Positions 27,949-48,295 of a DNA stretch of 48,296 nt are shown here, in pieces. A program made the translations under genes and the position numbers. The notes under the pieces are model-generated. The model was not told the DNA's origin. It was given only the letters and a program-made list of their open reading frames with translations, and ran no database searches. Each line of letters opens with the position of its first letter. The first letter of the stretch is position 1. This stretch comes from Cytophagaceae bacterium (lineage in GTDB: Bacteria; Bacteroidota; Bacteroidia; Cytophagales; UBA9547): NCBI GenBank assembly GCA_027488865.1, contig JAIYAU010000045.1, forward strand, positions 1 to 48,296, in the 5' to 3' direction.

Positions 27949-28117
27949 AAATTAGATTTAACAAAGATTACCAAATACAGAATTGTATATAAAGCATAAA
28001 ACAAAACCTCAAAATACAGTCTATCCTACGGTCATCATCCAATAGTACTCCAAGCATCATCCGATAACCATATAATAGGACAATTCCTAGAGATTGAAAT
28101 TCGAAATTTTATTTCCT

Positions 28118-28169
28118 CGGTAGGTGTCCCACCTGCCGAAAATTGTTGGCTGGTGGGGACACCAGCCAA
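28118..28169. repeat. Double-hairpin repeat (B-type), copy 1
   Basis: Hairpin one (28118-28138) pairs CGGTAGGTG with CACCTGCCG around TCC with one G-T wobble. Hairpin two (28146-28169) pairs TTGGCTGGTG with CACCAGCCAA perfectly around GGGA. The same pair of hairpins, with the same spacer CGAAAATTG, occurs at 43894-43944, so this is a dispersed palindromic element. Confidence 0.75.
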
Positions 28170-28208
28170 GGTTATGAGAAACCTCTCTTCAAGTACCCAA
28201 TCAATAAA

Positions 28209-39907: not shown

Positions 39908-39970
39908 AGAGATGAGACATAGAGATGAAACAAATAGACCAACCTTTTTATCTATTAGTTTTAAAATAAC

Positions 39971-40008
39971 AAAAAAATCCGTAGGGTCTAAGACCTTGCG
40001 GATTTTTT
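39971..40008 (-). terminator. Terminator of the BspA-LRR gene
   Basis: The 18-bp arms (AAAAAATCCGTAGGGTCT and AGACCTTGCGGATTTTTT) pair with two G-T wobbles, followed by T-runs on both strands. It lies 27 bp past the stop of the 1221-aa gene; it may act bidirectionally. Confidence 0.8.
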
Positions 40009-40034
40009 GTATTCTACTTTTTTAAGTATACTCG

Positions 40035-43800: not shown

Positions 43801-44060
43801 TTTCTGTAGTTGCTGGGGTTTAGCTCCATCAGTCATTCTGAAGTCGCGAATTGCTGCAGTTTTCCCTCATTTTTAAGGAGGGGTTATTACTTTGGTAAGT
43901 GTTCCACCTACCGAAAATTGTTGGCTGTTGGGGACACCAGCCAAGGTTATGAAGCAGATGACTATAGGTAATGCAACTTATAATAGTTGTTGGTGACGCC
44001 CGTTAAGTTCAATAGATATTCAGATTGAATTGTGGGCTAAACGTCAATAACGGTGGGAAA
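43801..44060. repeat. 260-bp MITE-like element with inverted A-type ends
   Basis: The left end (43801-43842, TTTCTGTAGTTGCTGGGG, then TTTAGCTCC) and right end (44018-44060, read in reverse TTTCCCACCGTTATTGACG, then TTTAGCCCAC) are inverted repeats, about 70% identical by eye. Inside lie a B double hairpin (43894-43944) and an F module (GCAGATGACTATAGGTAATG at 43954). No ORF fits, so if mobile it is non-autonomous. Confidence 0.7.
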
Positions 44061-47858: not shown

Positions 47859-48000
47859 ATTTCCGCCGTTGCTGGTGTTTAGCACCACTAATAATTCTAA
47901 AGTATTAATGCTTTTGGCGGGGCGTCACAAGCAACTTCCCTTTTCCTTAACATTAATCTGCATAACCAACCAACATTCCAGATATATCAACGGCTGTTTC
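47859..48000. repeat. Mosaic repeat (A and E modules) next to the RAYT
   Basis: ATTTCCGCCGTTGCTGGTG, then TTTAGCACCACTAATAATTC (A), a GCGTCACAAGCAACTTCCC link and TTAACATTAATCTGCATAAC (E). The A head here forms the only perfect small hairpin of the family: TGGTG (47873-47877), loop TTTAG, CACCA (47883-47887). Confidence 0.75.
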
Positions 48001-48009
48001 CCCCCTTCT

Positions 48010-48067
48010 ATCCGTAGAGTTAGCTTGCGCTCTACGGATTGTACAATGACTGTAGAGTCTCCGACTC
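48010..48067. repeat. Two REP-like hairpins downstream of the RAYT gene
   Basis: Hairpin one: ATCCGTAGAG (48010-48019) pairs perfectly with CTCTACGGAT (48030-48039). Hairpin two: GAGTC (48055-48059) pairs with GACTC (48063-48067) around TCC, preceded by GTA. They lie 13-70 bp from the stop codon of the transposase. GTAG is also the foot motif of E. coli REP hairpins recognised by TnpA-REP (known from that system; a similarity only). Confidence 0.7.
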
Positions 48068-48079
48068 GGATTCCTGCCT

Positions 48080-48295
48080 TTACACGTGCATTAGCTCCAG
48101 TAACCCCTTGCCATCGCAATAGTAATCAATGGCACTGGAATAAACATACTCCCATTCATTTCTTACGATTCCTGCACGCAATGGGTTCTCGTGAAGGTAC
48201 TTCATCTTTGACTCTAGCACCTCCGGAGAGAAACATTCTATAAGATGGTTGTCCTGTTGCCAAAACTGGTACTTTTCGTTCCGTTGGTTCTTTTG
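48080..48295 (-). CDS. REP-associated tyrosine transposase (RAYT), C-terminal part
   Basis: A frame open from the right edge and ending in TAA (48080-48082) encodes 71 residues matching the C-terminus of IS200/RAYT-type HUH tyrosine transposases (Y1 family): KYQFWQQDNHLIECFSPEV, then KMKYLHENPLRAGIVRNEWE and YVYSSAIDYYCDGKGLLEL. The Y in KYLHENPLRAG is the usual nucleophile tyrosine. The N-terminal HUH half lies outside the window. It has no start codon here, so it can be missed by start-based gene calling. It is intact as far as visible; whether it is active depends on the part that is not seen. Adjacent hairpins support the assignment. Confidence 0.85.
   Translation of the reverse strand, partial: QKNQRNEKYQFWQQDNHLIECFSPEVLESKMKYLHENPLRAGIVRNEWEYVYSSAIDYYCDGKGLLELMHV

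Follow-up and report, generated by a model that had tools for sequence, protein, structure and literature searches.

The RAYT gene at the right end of the window

The window analysed here is the whole of contig C8 (48296 bp) from the genome of a Cytophagaceae bacterium of the order Cytophagales, which was assembled to 4.33 Mb in 64 contigs. Its right end carries the 3′ part of a gene for a REP-associated tyrosine transposase (RAYT; REP, repetitive extragenic palindrome), followed by a repeat with two hairpins, referred to as element B, and by a second repeat, referred to as repeat A. The gene fragment was found on the minus strand at 48080-48295 and comprises the C-terminal 71 codons and the stop. 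The open reading frame (ORF) reads ...FWQQDNHLIE...KYLHENPLRAGIV...YSSAIDYYCDGKGLLELMHV; it is open at the contig end, where the 5′ part of the gene is lost, and it is truncated because contig C8 stops there. Judged by its sequence motifs, the ORF is the C-terminus of a RAYT (TnpA_REP), an HUH Y1 transposase, as a preliminary description of this DNA had proposed. The 12 named relatives that were found are led by Bacteroidota: an uncultured Cytophagales metagenome-assembled genome (MAG), 81% identical to the RAYT fragment, and other Bacteroidetes MAGs.

The fragment matched the profile NF047646 (REP-associated tyrosine transposase) with E 5.1e-8 and 32.9 bits, which is below the 80-bit cut-off and covers profile positions 95-146 only. 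A Pfam search with the 71-aa fragment gave no match. Two full-length relatives were tested, and these scored 101 and 103 bits against NF047646 and passed the cut-off of PF01797 as well. The TnpA_IS200 profile NF033573 gave 34-35 bits against a cut-off of 55, so membership in the IS200/IS605 TnpA family was not found. In the window's own copy, the contig end cuts off the HUH half. The motif, which the preliminary description had named as the thing to look for, is present as NHLH in same-type pieces of the same genome, where contig C27 and the left end of C40 read WCIMSNHLHLI, and in the relatives. NH[VI]H, FWQQ, Y[IL]HENP and SS occur in all five full-length relatives, which are 183-184 aa long. 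The Y motif of the window fragment is YLHENP, and Q or N stands in place of the E in several wider loci. Of 30 such loci from across the order, 22 showed [ND]HxH by pattern and 28 had SS close to the end; 18 of the 19 measurable ones had a HuH-Y spacing of 82-84. Most motifs closely fit subclass 2.6 of TnpA_REP (RAYT group 5), a placement made from the motif set. The nearest solved relatives by sequence include PDB chains of ISDra2 TnpA and Escherichia coli TnpA_REP (4er8), with weak matches (E 0.004-0.017). A structural model predicted from five sequences was weak (mean pLDDT 56.7). Its best PDB matches were nevertheless IS200/IS605 transposases, with TnpA_REP 4er8 at rank 20; the model has a supporting role only.

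Element B is an inverted hairpin end of the RAYT unit

Element B occupies 48004-48078 on the plus strand (75 nt), and its last base is separated by 1 nt from the last base of the stop codon (48080). It is made up of the two hairpins that the preliminary description had noticed right behind the RAYT stop. The outer hairpin (48010-48039, plus strand) has a perfect 10-bp stem with 100% complementary arms, and the inner hairpin (48055-48067, plus strand) reads GAGTC-TCC-GACTC. On contig C27, the order is B(+), RAYT(+), B(−), and the two 74-nt ends are 97% alike. The gene is thus bounded on both sides by inverted copies of B. A plain DNA search of the same genome recovered further copies with E-values such as 1.5e-121, 1.0e-48 and 1.7e-44, and the number of copies exceeds chance. 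The 12 clear copies served to build a model, R1, and their E-values under it are therefore by construction. R1 gave 25 matches in the genome at E ≤ 10, among which the 12 training copies alone score above 55 bits. The tetranucleotide GTAG is present twice in B. It was considered as an invariant tag and rejected, since it varies among copies (GTGG, ATAG, TTAG).

The structure of B was analysed in an alignment of 25 copies, 11 from the window's genome (the diverged copy on C60 was excluded) and 14 halves from the related genome G024. Across these copies, pairing holds in 98.4% of cells. In the outer stem, three pairs vary on both sides and contribute 14 double-change cells, a number reached in none of 500 shuffles, and far less covariation was seen when the partner columns were shifted by sliding. 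The inner stem shows almost no variation, with 99.2% of its cells paired. The covariation supports the predicted structure and does not prove it, as the structure was derived from the same, related sequences.

Copies of the unit and their flanks

The flanks of the 12 strong B copies were compared. At the inner edge, RAYT-unit sequence starting directly at B was found in 10 of the 12, and the outer 600 nt are common to no pair at E ≤ 1e-3. The 3′ sequence of the RAYT lies inside seven copies (C8, C27, C50, C21, C25, C22:8395 and C61) and its 5′ part inside three (C27 and, twice, C40). The copy at C22:9951 has no common inner sequence, and the one on C60 adjoins a different RAYT. Shared inner and unlike outer flanks indicate that dispersal involved the sequence of the unit along with its ends, and not the hairpins alone. 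Four contig ends lie inside the same kind of RAYT unit (the right ends of C8 and C50 and both ends of C40), as is expected when assemblers fail at multi-copy repeats.

Similar units were found in other genomes. On contig C51 of genome G006, two places are 97.4% identical over 720 bp, from inverted end to inverted end, and the adjoining 40 nt differ. Dispersal of the unit with precise ends is seen in these copies as well as in the flanks of the window's own genome. The one-contig genome G044 has seven mutually similar loci (about 86-95% over 501-740 bp), and in the genus of G044 there are dozens of shorter matches limited to the end region. Genome G024 contains 33 B-like halves. Eight inverted pairs of these (e.g., loci L184-L190) were examined and fold into palindromes of 135-159 nt with a short spacer, and no RAYT match was found within these eight stretches. 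With two inverted REPs, a short spacer and no gene, they form a REPIN-like population. The RAYT examined in G024 (locus L192) has ends related to B but different from it, and in the window's own genome no gene-free REPIN-like pair of B was established.

RAYT genes and inverted ends across the order

The 118 genomes of the order were searched with the RAYT profile at E ≤ 1e-20 and with R1 at E ≤ 1e-4 under stricter filters. The former matched 54 genomes and the latter 12. All 12 genomes with B-like ends are among the 54 with a RAYT, and none is among the 64 without (Fisher p 4.0e-5, uncorrected for shared ancestry); when the window's own genome is left out, the counts are 11 of 53 and 0 of 64 (p 8.8e-5). 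Equal occurrence of the hairpins in RAYT-less genomes, which the preliminary description had named as an outcome that would speak against its proposal, was not seen. The link it drew between the RAYT and cognate hairpins is supported by this distribution and by the paired ends on C27.

In a flank-pair test, the best loci of 30 of the 54 RAYT-positive genomes were used, and one was dropped for a short flank. An inverted flanking repeat with a score of at least 18 was found at 14 of the 29 usable loci and in none of 174 mismatched pairings. In a separate set of 11 RAYT loci, nine have inverted repeats and one had no flank. The 11.65 kb beside the RAYT genes contain 41 hairpins with a stem of at least 6 and a 3-nt loop, at 16 of 30 loci, compared with 8 and 5 in two 11-kb control bands (6 and 4 of 30 loci). 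A loop beginning with T was considered as a recognition mark of the clade and dropped, as it occurs in 32 of the 41 loops near the genes and in 9 of 13 in the controls (p 0.71). In the window's own genome the RAYT profile has 23 matches, and each of eight other RAYT loci tested has inverted flanking repeats (best E 2e-15 to 0.002). The ends of these eight are mostly unlike in sequence, with those on C28 and C46 alike, in line with the published rule that each RAYT has one REP family.

A probable insertion sequence-like unit

We consider it likely that the window ends inside an insertion sequence (IS)-like unit, in which a RAYT of the subclass 2.6 type is bounded by two inverted B ends of ~75 nt. 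As a RAYT end with its cognate hairpins, it looks like a self-moving element of an already known kind. What stands out is the evidence for movement of this class of RAYT as whole units with composite hairpin ends.

Several observations weigh against this reading. No intact assembled copy of exactly this RAYT was found in the window's own genome: the C27 copy is defective, and contig ends interrupt the remaining long ones. At the protein level, the RAYT profile places this RAYT beside only seven of the 12 B copies, and at C61, C22:8395 and C50 the inner match is only 22-40 nt of DNA (C50 is cut by the contig end). No clean empty site was found for two G044 loci in the seven genomes of the genus, G044 included; one flank is conserved and the other is not, the second locus having been judged from the match table only. 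In the flank-pair test, 15 of the 29 pairs scored below 18, one of the 11 loci in the separate set has no inverted repeat, and the [ND]HxH pattern was missed in 8 of the 30 wider loci. The association of B-like ends with the RAYT is inflated because the B-positive genomes, which span four families with six from the window's own, share ancestry. Finally, 42 of the 54 RAYT-positive genomes have no match to B, which is consistent with each RAYT having its own end type but makes the count a weaker test.

The alternative that survives best is a classical domesticated REPtron, in which the RAYT is stationary, only the hairpins move, and the extra RAYT pieces are products of local duplication and decay. 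The C27 unit agrees with it in being dead: it has a stop and lacks ~91 bp found at the left end of C40. We nevertheless regard a stationary RAYT as improbable, given the unit sequence inside most strong B copies with outer flanks that are all unlike, the near-identical end-to-end units at separate places in G006, the similar units in G044, and the four contig ends that break within the unit.

Repeat A is probably a separate family

Repeat A lies outside the RAYT unit at 47860-48000 on the plus strand and ends where B begins. It is the left ~140 nt of a ~260-bp palindromic repeat resembling a miniature inverted-repeat transposable element (MITE), and the whole palindrome is best seen at C36:398079. 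A model of it, R2, was built from 15 copies, which are themselves among its matches in the same genome. There it matched 33 times at E ≤ 1e-4, a figure in which some copies count twice, once for each half. Under the stricter filters, R2 found no match in the other 117 genomes of the order, though 53 of them carry the RAYT clade. Covariation in the longer stem was not above that of shuffles, and RNAalifold on A2 gave no consensus structure. The TGGTG-TTTAG-CACCA stem that the preliminary description called perfect exists, but CACCA is found only in the window's row of the 15 aligned copies, the others having mostly CCCCA.

The preliminary description had also suggested that the intergenic elements between 27.8 and 48.0 kb may owe their mobility to the RAYT. 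For the A/E modules, that is, repeat A, proximity speaks in favour. Repeat A directly precedes B in the window, a copy lies just behind a RAYT at C40:153010, a fragment of A abuts the RAYT unit on C60 (30 nt, E 0.002), and 4 of the 33 matches have one of 22 RAYT positions within 2 kb, where uniform placement predicts 0.52 (p 0.0017). This proximity can be explained by repeat-rich islands, since 23 of the 33 have another match within 5 kb, in some cases the other half of the same copy. Moreover, A and B cannot be aligned, A was found in one genome of the 118, and it stands at both ends of none of the RAYT loci tested. The suggestion thus found no support, mobilisation of A by this RAYT is very unlikely, and A was rejected as an end of the window's RAYT. 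Repeat A is probably a separate MITE-like family beside or under the RAYT unit. As it stops where B starts, the unit was probably inserted into or beside an older copy of A.

Two further arrangements of these repeats were observed. At C60:10.8-11.6 kb (L057, L007), a RAYT with its own 33-nt perfect inverted ends has a fragment of A on one side and a B-like element on the other, a case of nested repeats. At C25:4480-6435 (L098, L099, L126), two copies of A with the same orientation, separated by 1.7 kb, have surroundings that match, which suggests a tandem duplication.

Other features of the window

Near-perfect hairpins were noted at 28117-28171 and 43921-43944 (TTGGCTGGTGTCCCCACCAGCCAA and its neighbour). 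The RAYT genes at C28:85266 and C46:16456 have an inverted end to which the first shows a weak 25-nt resemblance (E 0.002), and the second was linked to the same C28/C46 end type by pattern. By these resemblances, both are possibly REPs of another RAYT lineage, that of C28 and C46. Several large proteins are encoded between 29222 and 47406; they have Por_Secre_tail sorting domains and BspA-type leucine-rich repeats, and repeat-rich intergenic regions separate them. An Rfam scan of 27500-48296 gave a single match, to the trpB motif RF04312 at 39918-40013, which is probably due to chance (34 bits against a gathering threshold of 59).

Discussion

The action of the RAYT of the IS-like unit on its B ends can be pictured by an analogy to IS200/IS605 TnpA and E. 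coli TnpA_REP. Each end has an outer 10-bp stem-loop, with a small inner one on the side of the gene. When the DNA is single-stranded, the enzyme probably binds to these hairpins, uses its Y1 tyrosine for cutting and mobilises the segment enclosed by two ends. If that segment includes the gene, the whole unit would spread; once the gene is lost, two joined ends may persist as a REPIN-like palindrome of ~150 nt, as seen in G024. Cleavage, strand choice and the action of this particular enzyme on B are taken from the same analogy. B could instead be a transcription terminator or an RNA-stability hairpin of the RAYT mRNA, as its position directly behind the stop codon and its conserved stems might suggest, but the inverted copy upstream of the gene on C27, the gene-free inverted pairs in G024 and the dispersed copies make this very unlikely.

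The unit was compared with known systems. RAYTs have been characterised as domesticated transposases that are present in a single copy and inherited vertically (PMC8049555), and a REPtron, according to PMC6006769, does not appear to be mobile as a whole. Subclass 2.6, or RAYT group 5, is reported mostly from Bacteroidetes, with the motifs NH[LIV]H, WQ, SS and YIH[QN]NP, a length of ~179 aa and a median HuH-Y spacing of 82; its members are flanked by atypical secondary structures without a GT[AG]G consensus, with copies elsewhere (Quentin et al. 2018, PMC6006769). The RAYT described here shares with this subclass NH[LIV]H, WQ and SS, a length near 180 aa, a HuH-Y spacing of 83 compared with 82, its occurrence in Bacteroidetes, and flanking atypical structures with copies elsewhere. 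It differs in that the closest members have YLHENP or YIHENP instead of YIH[QN]NP, Q or N being found in other loci of the clade, in the two occurrences of GTAG in B, though not invariant, and in the multi-copy state of the unit.

Like the REPtron (Nunvar et al. 2010, PMC2817692), the unit consists of a gene between two inverted hairpin repeats that are also found elsewhere in the genome; unlike it, the ends are ~75 nt long with two hairpins, and gene-bearing units are dispersed. The TIRtron/TIRYT (Di Nocera et al. 2013, PMC3733652) similarly has a RAYT-like gene between long terminal inverted repeats (TIRs) and possibly forms moderate repeat families. By its description it differs from the unit reported here, whose ends are paired hairpins, and the same paper notes that some TIRs are self-complementary. 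The inverted B-like pairs of G024, with their short spacer and length of 135-159 nt, resemble REPINs as defined in PMC8049555 and differ from them in that each half holds two hairpins. No published description of this RAYT unit was recognised in a literature search, most subscription papers being outside its reach.

We see an even chance that, in this order, RAYTs of the subclass 2.6 type are live IS-like units rather than settled, domesticated genes, with lineage-specific and in several cases composite ends; they would spread both whole and, once the gene is lost, as REPIN-like palindromes and stand as a present-day intermediate on the way from IS200/IS605 elements to domesticated REP systems. 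If this is true, a clade that contains the unit, solo ends and gene-free dimers would let the origin of REP systems from insertion sequences be watched, for example in the one-contig genome G044.
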